Shown: piece by piece, positions 4,870 to 40,150 of the stretch
Numbering within the stretch: position 1 is the stretch's first letter
Layout: every line of letters starts with the position of its first letter
From: Leifsonia sp. ALI-44-B
Lineage (GTDB): Bacteria > Actinomycetota > Actinomycetes > Actinomycetales > Microbacteriaceae
Assembly: GCF_001984125.1 (NCBI RefSeq)
Contig: NZ_MTQL01000006.1
Span: 1,116,001-1,180,000 of the forward strand
Direction: 5' to 3'
Length of the DNA: 64,000 nt
Translations under genes and position numbers: made by a program
Notes under the pieces: generated by a model
The model's input: only the letters and a program-made list of their open reading frames with translations
Told to the model about the DNA's origin: nothing
Databases searched by the model: none

Positions 4870-5250
4870 TTATTCGGCGGGCCACCAGTAGATCGAGCCA
4901 CCATCGCGGCCCTGGAAGCCGAAGGAGCACTCGTAGACCTCGACGATGGTCTGCGACTCGAGCACGATGCGGTTGCCCTTGGGCGGCTGGCTCTCACCGG
5001 GCACGCAGGAGGGGTCGACAATGGTGTCTCCGTGCCAGGTCGCCACGTGCACGCGGGGGTTGGAAAGCACACGGATGTCGCGCGCATTGTCTGGCAGCTG
5101 CTCGGGCAGCTTGCCCGACTCGATGAATGCCACGGCCTGCGTCTTCGACGTGAAGTACTCGAACGAACTCTCGCTCGAGCATCCGATCACGGACACACCG
5201 ATGACGGCACCCACGACGGCCGTCGAAACGACCTTGACCAACTGACGCAT
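4870..5250 (-). CDS. Small secreted lipoprotein of unknown function
   Basis: 126 residues. A signal peptide with a hydrophobic core (residues 5-21) ends in a lipobox, VIGC, with the lipidated Cys at 24; the mature part would be about 100 residues, anchored outside the membrane. It has two further cysteines (CVPG and YECSFGF) that could form a disulfide, and ends SIYWWPAE. A GGGGAGAAAGAG ribosome site precedes the ATG. No family was recognised. It is divergent from the MetE-like gene to its right and is not obviously part of an operon. Confidence 0.85.
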   Translation of the reverse strand: MRQLVKVVSTAVVGAVIGVSVIGCSSESSFEYFTSKTQAVAFIESGKLPEQLPDNARDIRVLSNPRVHVATWHGDTIVDPSCVPGESQPPKGNRIVLESQTIVEVYECSFGFQGRDGGSIYWWPAE

Positions 5251-5411
5251 ACGCTCTTTCTCCCCCCGGCATCAGTGTGGCAGAACGCACCCGTCGGCCG
5301 CGGAAAACGTGGCAATCGAGACCCACCCGTTGCCAAAAACGGCATTTTGCGACAGTGCGAAAAACGCGTGCCCGGGGAATCGCTCCATGGCCCGTCGTCG
5401 GTGGTCGGCGG

Positions 5412-5417
5412 TAGGCT
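5412..5417 (+). promoter_or_regulatory. -10 element TAGGCT, leaderless start
   Basis: TAGGCT ends seven bases before the GTG at 5425, so transcription would begin at or next to the start codon. No Shine-Dalgarno sequence is present. Confidence 0.7.
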
Positions 5418-5424
5418 GGAACGC

Positions 5425-6525
5425 GTGAGCGTACCCCACCTGAACGGCGTGCATCTGGTCGGTTCCATCAACCTGCCCGATGCCGAGACGACCTTCCGCA
5501 CCGTGTCCGAGAGGCTCGGCGCACATGCGGCGCGCCTGCCCGACGGCGAGGTCGGCGAGCGCTTCCACTGGATTCTTTTTCAGGGCGCCAGATTCGAACA
5601 AACCTCCGGCCTGCACCGCGTGGGCGCCGAGCCGTTCCTGGTCGCGGGATTCGACCTGCGCCCCGTCGACATCGACGAGGGTGTCGACCCCGACGGCATC
5701 GAGTTCGGCCCGTTGGGATACGCCGACGCCGCTCTCAGCAGCTACGCCGCCTTCAGCGCCCTGCGCGAGAGAGGCGAGATCGCGCCCGGCACGCGTTTCC
5801 AGGTGAGCCTGCCGACACCTCTCGCGCCGCTCACCACGTTTGCCATGCCATCCGCCCAGCCCGCGCTCTATCCCGCCTACGAGGCTGCGTTGGCGCGCGA
5901 GATCGAGCAGATCACGGCGGCCATCCCGGCCGACGACCTCGCCATTCAATTCGACCTCGCCACCGAATTCGCCTTCATCGAGCAGGTCAGCCTGGGTGGC
6001 GGGCCGCTCACGCCCTGGTTCGCCGAGGCGGGGGCCGATGCCGACAGCATCATCGCCGGATGCGTGGTCGCCGCATCACGCGTCGCCAACCTGGTTCCGG
6101 CGGGCGTTCAGCTGGGCTTCCACCTCTGCTACGGGGATGTGGCCGAGAAACACTTCGTCGAGCCATCCGACACCGCCAACCTCGTCGCCGTCGCCAACGG
6201 GCTCACCACCGGTGTGACCCGTCGCATCGACTGGGTGCACCTACCCGTGCCGATCGAGCGGGACGACAGCGACTACTTCGTGCCGCTGGCCGCGCTCAAC
6301 CTGCGCGCCGAGACCGACCTCTTCCTGGGAGTCGTGCACCACGAAGACGGCGTGGCCGGCGCCCACCGGCGGCTCGAGGCCGCTGAGCCGGCGCTCACCA
6401 CGGCCGGAATCCGCCAGGTGGGCATCGCCACAGAATGCGGCTTCGGGCGCGGGCCGCAGGAGCGGACCGTTCCGCTGCTCGACCTGCATGCCGAGATTCT
6501 TTCGACGCTCGGGGCGAAGCACTAG
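5425..6525 (+). CDS. UROD/MetE-like superfamily protein
   Basis: 366 residues starting at GTG 5425, chosen because the GVHLVGSINLPDAE opening aligns with the family start and a -10 element lies seven bases upstream; the frame stays open further upstream but that part is noncoding in character. The fold is that of the C-terminal half of cobalamin-independent methionine synthase. Two zinc-site elements appear retained: LGFHLCYGD near residue 229 (His-x-Cys) and TECGFGRG near residue 334 (second Cys). Members of this family are methyl- or alkyl-transferases using thiols, but the substrate here is unknown. It stands alone, followed by short tandem repeats and a strong hairpin terminator. Confidence 0.8.
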   Translation: MSVPHLNGVHLVGSINLPDAETTFRTVSERLGAHAARLPDGEVGERFHWILFQGARFEQTSGLHRVGAEPFLVAGFDLRPVDIDEGVDPDGIEFGPLGYADAALSSYAAFSALRERGEIAPGTRFQVSLPTPLAPLTTFAMPSAQPALYPAYEAALAREIEQITAAIPADDLAIQFDLATEFAFIEQVSLGGGPLTPWFAEAGADADSIIAGCVVAASRVANLVPAGVQLGFHLCYGDVAEKHFVEPSDTANLVAVANGLTTGVTRRIDWVHLPVPIERDDSDYFVPLAALNLRAETDLFLGVVHHEDGVAGAHRRLEAAEPALTTAGIRQVGIATECGFGRGPQERTVPLLDLHAEILSTLGAKH

Positions 6526-36243: not shown

Positions 36244-39000
36244 TCAGGCGTCGGGATGGCTGGACCACAGGGCGCGCACCGACTCGAGTTCATCGCGGCG
36301 GCTGATGCCGAGTTTTCGGAAGGCCCTGTTGAGGTGGTTTTCGACGGTGCGTACCGAGACGCTGAGCCGGGAGGCGATGGTGTGGTTCGACGCCCCAACG
36401 GCGGCGAGCGCGGTGATCTCTTGTTCCCGCTGGGTGAGCGCGGGGCGGGACGCAGCCTGTGCGTGCACGTGCCACAGCACGTCGGCGTCGAGGGTGCCGC
36501 CGAGGGCCTGGGCGAGCTGATCGGCCCGGTCGGCGTCGCCGGCTCGACCAGCCAAGCGATAGGCATCGGCCGCGCGCAGGTAGGCCCCGGCCGCGTGCAC
36601 GGCCTGGTTGGCGGCGCGCAACCGGTCCCCGGCCCGTTCGATCCAGTCGGCCTCGGCTCCGCCGACGCCGCGCAGGTAGTCGAGCAGGGGGCCGAACAGT
36701 TCTCCTTCGAGCGCGGCCGACCGCACCACCCGGGCCGCATCGGAGACGCTCTCGAGCGCCATGATCTCGGCGATCGCCGCCTGGACGGCGAAGCCCCGGC
36801 GGGAGAAATCGGCTTGAGCGGCGGCCAGCAGGCGGCGGCTTCGGTCGTCGTCGCCGCGGGCATGGGCGCTCTGCGCTTCGGCGAACTCGGCCGCGGCGAG
36901 CGGGAGGGACGACACGTGCGGCAACCATCGCCGAGCCTGCACGGTGAGCGTTTCCGCCACGTCGAGAGCGCCGCGGCGTGCGGCGACGATCGCTCCGAGC
37001 ACGAGGATGGCTCCATAGACGTCGGCCGATTCAGCGCCGGGTTCGCCGAGCGCCAGCGCGGCACCGATGGCGTCGTCGGCCTCGGCGTTTCGCCCCGTGT
37101 GCACGAGCGCGAGGGCGCACACATAGGCCTGATCGCGCAGCGCGTCCGCGTCGAGATCGGCGAGGGCCGCGTCGCGCCACTCGGCGGCCCGGCGCAGCGC
37201 CTCATCGATGCGCCCTACGCCGAAAAGCGCCAAGACGGTGACGCGCCTCCGCCGCCTGCGCCAGTGCACACTCTCGTCGACGGGTTCGTCAGGCATCTCC
37301 ACGAGGCGCAGTGCCCGCGCGAACCACCCCTTGGCCTGCACTATCTCGGCGAGCGCCACGGCCGCCTCGTCGACGCGGGCCGCGCCATACTCAGCCATGG
37401 CACCGCCGGCGGCTTGGCCCTCGGCCGCTCCGGCCCCGGCGGCTCCGGCGGCTCCGGCCCCAGCGGCTCCGAGCTCGGCATCCCCATCTTCATCCCCGCC
37501 TCCGCCGACTCCCACCCCGGCGGATCCCACTCCCGCGCGATCAATCAGCTCTCTGACAAGCTGCTCGCTGCCCGCCGAGAAACCGTGTGCGCGGACCTCA
37601 GCCTCGAGACCGATGACCTCGATGGCGTCGATGGCGTCGGCCGACCCGGGCAAATACGAACGCGCTTCGCTCAACACCCGCGCGAGTTCGCCTTCTCCCC
37701 CGTCACGCACCGCGATGTTGACGCGATGCGCGAGTAAAGCCAGGTTGGCCCGCTGCTCCCCCTCGACATAGTCACTGTCGCGCAACACGTCATGGGCGAC
37801 GCGCTCGGCGCCCGCATCGCGACCGAGCGCGTCGGCTAAGGCCAGCGCGGCGTGCAGGCCAGGATGCCGCCGCCACGCGTCGAGCGCCCGCGCCGCTTCT
37901 GCCTGGCGATGTTCTGTCATGAGCCGCGCGACGGCGGGATTGCGCACCGCCTCCCACTCGAGCGCCGCCGGCAGCACGCGGCTCGGCAGGGCGCGGGCCG
38001 GCAGCTCGGCTCGCGGCGCGTCTACCGCCGGCCCGGCCTCTCGTTCCCCGCGATCGCTCGCTACCCTCTCGACGAGCCGCACGCGCCGCGCACTGATCGA
38101 CTGATGCCGGTAGTACTCGGCGATCAATGGAGGGTTGACCGCCACCATCACACGCACCCCGTTGCGGAACACGGTGACGAGCCCGCGGGCCTCGAGCTGT
38201 TCGAGCACCGGCGAACCGATCAGCCGCACGCCCCGGTCGATCGTGACGATGCCGGCGAGGGCGAGCATTTCGAGCCCCTCGCGCAGGGATGCCGTGAGCG
38301 GGTAGAGGATCTCGGTGATATGCGGGGCGAGGGCGGGGTGCCACAGATCGTCACCCGCGTGCCAGGAGCCGGCCTGCTCCCTGAGGATGCCGTGCTGCCG
38401 CCCCGTCTCGCCCACGGCGACGACCAGCCGCGGGAGCCCCCCTGACTTCGAGAACACCCGCCCGGCGGTGTGCGCGTCGACGCCGCCACCGAGGACGTCT
38501 TCGAGCAAGGCCCTGACTTCCTCGTATCGCAGAGCCTCGAGGGCCACGCGCGCGACCCGGCACTCGAGCACGTGCAGCGCACCCGAACCTTCGGGGGCGT
38601 GAGCGTCGAGCGCATAGACGACGGGCACGTCGGTGCGCCGTTGCACAGCCGAGATGACGCCCCAACTCTCGGGGTCGACTACGGCCGCGTCGTCGACGAG
38701 GATCAGCGCCGGCCTGGCGAGCGCCCACCCCGTGAGCGCCTCGACGCGGGCCGAGATGGCACTCTTGCCACCCGCGGACGCAGATCGAACCCCCGCCACC
38801 CCGAGCGCTTCGAGCGCATGGGCGCGCAACGCGAATTCACCGGACACCGACAGTGTGCCGAAATCCTCGTCGCGTGCAGCCCGCTCGACACCGCGCAGCA
38901 ACGTGCTCCGGCCGCTCCCCCATGAGCCACGCAGCTCGACGGAGACCCCTTCACGCACGTGCGCCAGGACGGCCGCCAGCTCGCGACGTCGGACACTCAT
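36244..39000 (-). CDS. Large LuxR-family (LAL-type) transcriptional regulator
   Basis: 918 residues from ATG 39000 with AGAGG eight bases upstream; a GTG one codon earlier is an alternative. Residues 1-200 form a STAND/AAA-like ATPase: the P-loop is GSWGSGRST near residue 26, with Arg where Walker A normally has Lys, and Walker B is ALILVDDA near 97. A long helical (TPR-like) middle follows, interrupted near residues 490-530 by a Gly/Ala run. The C-terminal HTH is LTQREQEITALAAVGAS to VENHLNRAFRKLGI. LAL proteins couple ATP and ligand binding to activation. Divergent from the two-domain unknown gene at 39347 across a motif array. Target genes unknown; the amino-sugar operon downstream is on the same strand but has its own promoter region. 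Confidence 0.9.
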   Translation of the reverse strand: MSVRRRELAAVLAHVREGVSVELRGSWGSGRSTLLRGVERAARDEDFGTLSVSGEFALRAHALEALGVAGVRSASAGGKSAISARVEALTGWALARPALILVDDAAVVDPESWGVISAVQRRTDVPVVYALDAHAPEGSGALHVLECRVARVALEALRYEEVRALLEDVLGGGVDAHTAGRVFSKSGGLPRLVVAVGETGRQHGILREQAGSWHAGDDLWHPALAPHITEILYPLTASLREGLEMLALAGIVTIDRGVRLIGSPVLEQLEARGLVTVFRNGVRVMVAVNPPLIAEYYRHQSISARRVRLVERVASDRGEREAGPAVDAPRAELPARALPSRVLPAALEWEAVRNPAVARLMTEHRQAEAARALDAWRRHPGLHAALALADALGRDAGAERVAHDVLRDSDYVEGEQRANLALLAHRVNIAVRDGGEGELARVLSEARSYLPGSADAIDAIEVIGLEAEVRAHGFSAGSEQLVRELIDRAGVGSAGVGVGGGGDEDGDAELGAAGAGAAGAAGAGAAEGQAAGGAMAEYGAARVDEAAVALAEIVQAKGWFARALRLVEMPDEPVDESVHWRRRRRRVTVLALFGVGRIDEALRRAAEWRDAALADLDADALRDQAYVCALALVHTGRNAEADDAIGAALALGEPGAESADVYGAILVLGAIVAARRGALDVAETLTVQARRWLPHVSSLPLAAAEFAEAQSAHARGDDDRSRRLLAAAQADFSRRGFAVQAAIAEIMALESVSDAARVVRSAALEGELFGPLLDYLRGVGGAEADWIERAGDRLRAANQAVHAAGAYLRAADAYRLAGRAGDADRADQLAQALGGTLDADVLWHVHAQAASRPALTQREQEITALAAVGASNHTIASRLSVSVRTVENHLNRAFRKLGISRRDELESVRALWSSHPDA

Positions 39001-39033
39001 CACATCTGCCTCTCCGGCGCGAACCCGCGCTCG

Positions 39034-39206
39034 TACTCAATATATCGATACTTCACATGGCGAACCGAGGCAGACATCGGCCGACGTGTGCAACTACTCA
39101 GGCCAGGCTTGCTCGCTACTCAACCCGACCCGCGCGCTACTCAGGCGCTCGCTTGCCCTGCACGGATACACACTGTCACTACTCAAATCTCACGCTGCGC
39201 TACTCA
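39034..39206. repeat. Six TACTCA motifs, five of them CTACTCA, with about 21-bp phasing
   Basis: TACTCA begins at 39034, 39095, 39117, 39138, 39180 and 39201; spacings are 61, 22, 21, 42 and 21 bases, that is about two or four helical turns (the first about six). The last five have the form CTACTCA followed by A or G. They sit in the 343-base gap between the divergent LAL regulator and the unknown gene at 39347. The rest of the gap is AT-rich in places (TATATCGATA, AATATATG) and holds a palindrome at 39277; no gene is seen in it. Confidence 0.85.
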
Positions 39207-39276
39207 AATAACCCGATCAGAGCCAATATATGCGTGTCGCCTGCCTACCATTATGAGGCACGGCATCCCCACTCAT

Positions 39277-39290
39277 TTCGACCGGTCGAA
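39277..39290. promoter_or_regulatory. 14-bp perfect palindrome upstream of the unknown gene
   Basis: TTCGACCGGTCGAA is fully self-complementary and lies 56 bases before the ATG at 39347. It is not a LexA box (the N4 spacing is absent). Possible operator. Confidence 0.5.
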
Positions 39291-39346
39291 CAACCGCACA
39301 CAAATCCGAGCGGGCGCTGCCATTCAGAAAAAAGAAAGGCACAACG

Positions 39347-40150
39347 ATGATTCGAGTCGAACGTCTGCGCTCCGACGGATCTCACGAGCGCGGCGACCTG
39401 GTCGCCACGGATTGCGGCATGGTCTACATCTTCCCCGCCGAGGTGCCGCTGTCCGCTCGACGAACGGGGCGCGGTTGGTACCAGCACCGGGTGGGTTACA
39501 TCGTCTATGAATGCGACCTCAGCTGGACGGTGCGCAACATCGGCAACCGCATCCTGCACGACCTGATCGAAGACCGCTTGGATGCCCTCGCCACCATCGC
39601 GGCCTCCGAGGGGTTCCGCATCACGGCTCTCGGCCGCCCGGATCGCCTCGTCGACATGAAGCTGCCCGTCACCCTCACGATTCGAGAGCGATCGCGCCGG
39701 TACGCCACCCTCTCCACCACCTCGGGCAAGGTCTTCCTCTTCCCCGAACGCGTCGCCCCCAAACACCGCCGGGTGGGATCAGGGTGCGGCGAGGTGTTCC
39801 TCGGTTGTGTGCGACGCACGGCGCGCGGCTGGGACATCGAACTCGAGTCCGGAGAAAGCGGCGAGATCCTGCGCGATTCACGGGTCGACGCGGTGCACGA
39901 GCTCGTGAGCCTGCACACGACCCTGATGGAGCAGACATCCGCGCCGGCCACCGCGCTCACCCGCCCCGCCGAAGCCGAGACCGAAACCGTGTTCGTCAGC
40001 CTCGGCGATCCAGATGCCTCGGATGCTTCGAGCCGCGCCCATGCGCTCGAGACGGCCATCCGCGAGCACGATGCCTCACGCTTCACCGCGCCACGCGCCT
40101 ACCGCCCCGCCCCCGCATCCACGCGCCCTCTGCAGAGCCTCTATGCCTGA
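39347..40150 (+). CDS. Unknown protein with two copies of an unrecognised ~70-residue domain
   Basis: 267 residues, GAAAGG ribosome site before ATG 39347. Residues about 16-85 and 110-185 align with each other: GMVYIFPAEVPLSARR against GKVFLFPERVAPKHRR, then a Gly/Tyr/Val-rich strand segment, then ILHDLIEDRLDALATI against ILRDSRVDAVHELVSL. This suggests tandem duplication of a small beta-rich domain ending in a helix. The last 80 residues are polar and probably disordered. No signal peptide or membrane helix. I recognise no family. Position opposite the LAL regulator, with its motif array, suggests that it is its target. Confidence 0.8.
   Translation: MIRVERLRSDGSHERGDLVATDCGMVYIFPAEVPLSARRTGRGWYQHRVGYIVYECDLSWTVRNIGNRILHDLIEDRLDALATIAASEGFRITALGRPDRLVDMKLPVTLTIRERSRRYATLSTTSGKVFLFPERVAPKHRRVGSGCGEVFLGCVRRTARGWDIELESGESGEILRDSRVDAVHELVSLHTTLMEQTSAPATALTRPAEAETETVFVSLGDPDASDASSRAHALETAIREHDASRFTAPRAYRPAPASTRPLQSLYA

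Follow-up and report, generated by a model that had tools for sequence, protein, structure and literature searches.

A Conserved, Helically Phased Array of Putative Operator Sites beside a LAL Regulator Gene, Proposed Head of a Small Genus-Specific Regulon in Okibacterium

Repeated Sites in the Gap between Two Divergent Genes

The DNA analyzed here (the window, 64,000 nucleotides) carries a gap between the divergent genes of a LAL protein and of a 267-amino acid protein without assigned family, within which the hexamer TACTCA recurs. The locus raises the question of whether these repeats are an operator, which protein would bind them and how many genes would be controlled in this way. The answer developed below is that they form a genuine, conserved and helically phased array of putative operator sites, from which a small regulon restricted to the genus would be controlled.

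TACTCA is found in the + strand of the gap sequence starting at positions 39034, 39095, 39117, 39138, 39180 and 39201, that is, with start-to-start steps of 61, 22, 21, 42 and 21 bp, as given by the initial annotation. The last five words, and not the first (39034), read CTACTCA. These five sites occupy positions 39094–39100 (site 1), 39116–39122 (site 2), 39137–39143 (site 3), 39179–39185 (site 4) and 39200–39206 (site 5), all on the + strand, with steps of 22, 21, 42 and 21 bp. Relative to the promoter-proximal site 5 (position 0) the others start at −106, −84, −63 and −21. A degenerate rung in phase with the sites, CTGCACG (39158–39164, + strand), is found at −42; it is identical in the two species compared below and lies inside a conserved block, CTGCACGGAT.

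The array is far beyond what is expected by chance. Shuffling of the gap (first-order Markov, 20,000 sequences) yielded a mean of 0.14 TACTCA per gap and a maximum of 4, and half of the 12 TACTCA present in the window, counting both strands, are inside the gap. The location of the sites on one face of DNA, also part of the initial annotation, is borne out by the helical coherence of the five sites (R = 0.97–0.98 at a period of 10.5–10.6 bp), which is attained in 0.2% of random placements. The locus thus features a site repeated at multiples of the helical repeat and conserved along with its spacing, as characterizes one-face arrays.

Conservation in O. fritillariae and Restriction to the Genus

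The genus sample was composed of two genomes, the one containing the window (G000), which by kinship belongs to another Okibacterium species, and that of Okibacterium fritillariae (G001). The orthologous gap of O. fritillariae is flanked by the orthologues of the LAL and of the 267-amino acid proteins and keeps the sites at −106, −84, −63, −21 and 0 with all their steps. Site 1 is kept in position and sequence while site 2 has the letters ACACTCA in the congener. In the two-species alignment 33 of 35 motif columns are identical versus 63 of 131 flanking columns in the same stretch (Fisher p = 2e-7); the spacers between motifs have 36 identical columns out of 78 (about 46%). The TACTCA at 39034 is not kept in O. 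fritillariae and overlaps the edge of a block conserved in the alignment, CAATATATCGATAC (39038–39051, − strand), where the LAL gene probably has its −10 region. The array proper is for these reasons delimited to 39094–39206, and of the six-motif array initially described five sites remain.

Genome-wide statistics were obtained by pattern searches. Pairs of CTACTCA with a gap of 13–15 bp (~21 bp apart) occur five times in the window genome and four times in O. fritillariae. Nine were found across 97 relatives versus about 11 for a reversed-pattern control, which is the chance level, so the CTACTCA word and its spacing are considered special to Okibacterium. Pairs with a gap of 31–60 bp are present in both Okibacterium genomes only inside this array. 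This search for CTACTCA clusters had been suggested together with two outcomes that would argue against a function, lack of conservation upstream of orthologues and an equal frequency at random loci; both were examined and neither was found. A lone pair located within a coding region (G000:C6:42304) was discarded.

The LAL Protein and the 267-Amino Acid Protein

The LAL gene (36244–39000, − strand) codes for a candidate regulator whose features, assigned by profile, motif and orthologue, are a STAND-type ATPase and a C-terminal GerE/LuxR helix-turn-helix. The mechanically defined ORF starts with GTG at 39003, but the conserved ATG at 39000 was taken as initiation codon because the O. fritillariae orthologue begins MSVRRREL. 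The resulting length is 918 amino acids. The GerE domain (PF00196) spans residues 855–906 (E = 3e-12), a C-terminal region matching the structures of GerE, VraR, DevR and NarL. ATP binding was assigned by motif (Walker A GSWGSGRS at residue 26 and LILVDD at residue 100) since no Pfam NTPase scored above cut-off. LAL regulators are described in PMC3282765 as a poorly studied family defined by an N-terminal ATP-binding domain with a Walker A motif; the S. coelicolor members listed there have 780–919 amino acids. The protein encoded here combines the large size, the N-terminal Walker A motif and the C-terminal LuxR-type helix-turn-helix of this class. It has no match to SARP/BTAD or Trans_reg_C domains, as found in SARP-LAL proteins, and its score of 35 bits to the NCBIfam MalT model (cut-off 537 for an orthologue) arises from the helix-turn-helix only. 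The O. fritillariae orthologue is 73–75% identical. Among 60 genomes of the family, none outside Okibacterium has a detected orthologue, the best matches there showing 28–34% identity over partial length. LAL relatives in other genera have no phased repeat upstream of their own genes, showing that the proximity between array and LAL gene is not a general rule.

The 267-amino acid protein (39347–40150, + strand) has an orthologue 73–74% identical in O. fritillariae and no match in Pfam, NCBIfam or PDB, nor a plasmid homologue. Its depiction as a two-domain protein gained some support: two-sequence comparisons detected a weak likeness between its N and C halves (E = 1e-4) and a similarity of the N half to a single-domain protein of ~93 amino acids from another genus (that of G029; E = 4e-11), compatible with a weak internal tandem duplication of a ~90-amino acid domain. 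There is no TACTCA in the 10 kb around this single-domain relative. Structure prediction of the 267-amino acid protein from a two-sequence alignment gave a mean pLDDT of 35.

A conserved block between the array and the gene, CCTGCCTACCATTATGAGGCACGGC (39240–39264, + strand), has 25 identical columns in the two species. It likely comprises the −10 region (TACCAT/CATTAT) and the transcription start of the 267-amino acid gene. Downstream from this presumed promoter is a perfect 14-bp palindrome, TTCGACCGGTCGAA (39277–39290), kept in both species and present once in the window, that is possibly the operator of a second regulator. The lengths of the two proteins and the palindrome agree with the initial annotation.

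Arrays at Other Loci

The array at 39094–39206 (array A) is not unique in the genus. Array B, present in both species upstream of a 137-amino acid membrane protein gene, has sites at 0, −21, −41 and −63/−64, the −41 rung being ACACTCA/ACGCTCA. Array C, also found in both species, is composed of three sites with steps of 20 and 23 bp between genes that were identified by eye from sequence as TrmH-like RNA methyltransferase and antitoxin-like, and is oriented away from the latter. Its CTGAGTAGT (twice) and TGAGTAC words are kept across species while the spacers differ. The reverse-oriented TACTCA of array C overlap AAGTAC/GTACTT words repeated before the antitoxin-like gene (G000:C7:985208 onward, about 5209–5250 of L009) which are kept in the congener and look like an autoregulatory operator.

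Two further arrays were found only in O. fritillariae. Array D has three sites with exact 21-bp steps upstream of the gene of a secreted 200-amino acid protein whose N-terminus is signal-like. The tail of this protein is rich in Cys and Gly and has a halocin C8-like score below threshold (E 0.08, 13.9 bits versus a cut-off of 24). Array E has four or five sites upstream of the gene of a secreted 116-amino acid protein, apparently without a leader. Homologues of the D and E proteins were not detected in the window genome, and those of other genera (G050, G035) are encoded without an array. These two small secreted proteins with Cys/Gly-rich tails, encoded at G001:C3:416000-428000 (5190–5792) and G001:C4:147000-159000 (5486–5836), have sporadic homologues in other genera. 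They are possibly bacteriocin-like, although the halocin C8-like score was obtained for one of them only and is below threshold.

The consensus over 30 sites is RCTACTCAR. Since the search used TACTCA, the core is invariant by construction, and independent information comes solely from the R and C before it and the R after it. Distances between ACTCA in the collected arrays peak at 20–23, 41–43 and 63–64 bp. At four loci the ladder is directed toward the gene and its last site starts about 43–47 bp before a −10-like hexamer, a weak match picked by eye. One step downstream (+21) a CCA followed by A/T-rich or ACTCA-like letters is found at A (in the window species), B, D and E, and may correspond to a weak site beside the −35 region.

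Conserved motifs and spacings amid diverged spacers, restriction to the genus and recurrence are direct observations. Together they support well the proposal that the gap is a landing pad where a regulator would bind cooperatively. The target was supposed to be a dedicated one; instead the array is part of a small regulon, with at least three loci in the window genome and five in that of O. fritillariae. The regulon is unstudied but not exotic, and the array is ordinary in kind and new in detail. Comparative genomics alone was enough to define the site as RCTACTCAR, to reveal its strict spacing and to name a few targets, rendering binding, cooperativity and the effect of ladder length directly testable. 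As targets are proteins without assigned family, the regulon also offers a route to uncharacterized secreted and membrane proteins.

Candidate Regulator and Comparison with Known Systems

Very probably a single gene-control protein docks on the ladder, and this regulator is most likely the adjacent LAL protein, a candidate from its sequence and position. It is the best one because it has the right type of DNA-binding domain, the longest array adjoins its gene and no orthologue was detected outside the genus. TACTCA fits the NarL heptamer consensus TACYYMT (PMC4886647), in agreement with a GerE/LuxR-type DNA-binding domain. LAL gene and motif co-occur in two genomes of one genus. We consider it reasonably probable overall that the LAL protein binds the ladder as an activator of a small regulon, on a one-face operator resembling those of MalT and BvgA. 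The gap would be an activator operator with asymmetric GerE-type sites RCTACTCAR spaced by two helical turns, the last of them shortly before the promoter of the 267-amino acid gene. Monomers or an oligomer of the regulator would line up on one DNA face, as suggested by the repetition of single, directed half-sites, and recruit RNA polymerase. By analogy with MalT, the LAL protein might multimerize on ATP and an inducer, and the shorter ladders before a few other genes would be the rest of its regulon. Three elements of this scheme are inferred: which protein binds, that it activates instead of repressing, and that an inducer takes part. Array C, which points away from the antitoxin-like gene and has steps of 20 and 23 bp, fits it less well.

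Further LuxR-type regulators are very probably encoded in both genomes and one of them could be the binder. It is possible though somewhat unlikely that the ladder is occupied by another protein of the GerE type, for instance a response regulator like NarL or BvgA, encoded elsewhere, whose stacked dimers would sit every 21–22 bp; the LAL gene would then be only a neighbor or a target. It would account for the arrays away from the 39094–39206 locus having no LAL neighbor, the NarL heptamer fit speaks for it as well, and BvgA, a NarL-type regulator, places up to six dimers along one face of DNA at 22-bp intervals, the final one adjoining the −35 region (PMC7250471). The ladders described here are like those of BvgA in the GerE-family domain, the two-turn sites on one face and a last site near −35. 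However, BvgA dimers are head-to-head and recognize inverted heptads, whereas one asymmetric, directed half-site per 21-bp step is conserved here. The 30 aligned sites have no inverted partner; enrichment beyond the TACTCA core is limited to R-C in front of it and R behind it. The LAL protein, which unlike BvgA is not a response regulator, is moreover the only LuxR-type product among those neighbors of the five arrays that were annotated.

The LAL protein as binder finds partial parallels in other systems. MalT, the LAL prototype, multimerizes in response to ATP and inducer and binds its boxes cooperatively (PMC4381067). Like the E. coli maltose regulon, the one proposed here would have a large ATP-binding LuxR-type regulator and a few scattered target promoters, but the motif differs from MalT boxes, the sites, as many as five or six, recur strictly at every second turn, and the likeness in protein sequence is confined to the helix-turn-helix. 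PimR, a SARP-LAL protein and thus with a LAL half, binds cooperatively to heptameric direct repeats, though through its SARP domain and with 4-bp spacers (11-bp step versus 21 here) (PMC5930380). MilO, a LuxR-family activator, binds three direct repeats that precede a promoter, in its case with a 13-bp step, another motif and one direct target (PMC11784345). A bolder version of the LAL proposal, rather doubtful at present, is that a genus-specific LAL/STAND filament assembles on the two-turn half-site ladder, the 3–6 rungs setting promoter strength in a regulon of membrane proteins and small secreted, possibly bacteriocin-like proteins.

We regard it as quite unlikely that the array serves repression or silencing, perhaps also shutting down the LAL gene. 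The gap does include the LAL promoter as well, the conserved palindrome is a second element, located past the presumed start, and array C sites overlap a promoter region in reverse orientation. At four of the five loci, however, the sites are upstream of the presumed −10 rather than over it and are all directed to the gene, at a similar distance between the last site and the −10, as in activator sites.

Repeats of Similar Period in Other Genera

An origin of the array as a functionless repeat, either a minisatellite in decay or a mobile intergenic element, is extremely improbable: minisatellites of 20–22 bp containing ACTCA are indeed present in other genera of the family, but with near-identical spacers, whereas here spacers vary between copies and species and the heptamer and spacing are kept, a conserved footprint over diverged spacers that refutes this reading in the main.

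Searching the whole family for three ACTCA in steps of 20–22 bp retrieved mostly minisatellites in other genera; the reversed control is void for this word, which is identical when reversed. ACTCA minisatellites with a 20–22 bp period occur in several other Microbacteriaceae genera at many sites per genome (L072-L074, L081, L082, L092-L094 and others). The sequence TACTCACGTGTTACTCA is found in both Okibacterium genomes (L049, L050, L053) and, being twice near contig ends, is probably part of a repeated element, e.g., an rRNA operon or a mobile element.
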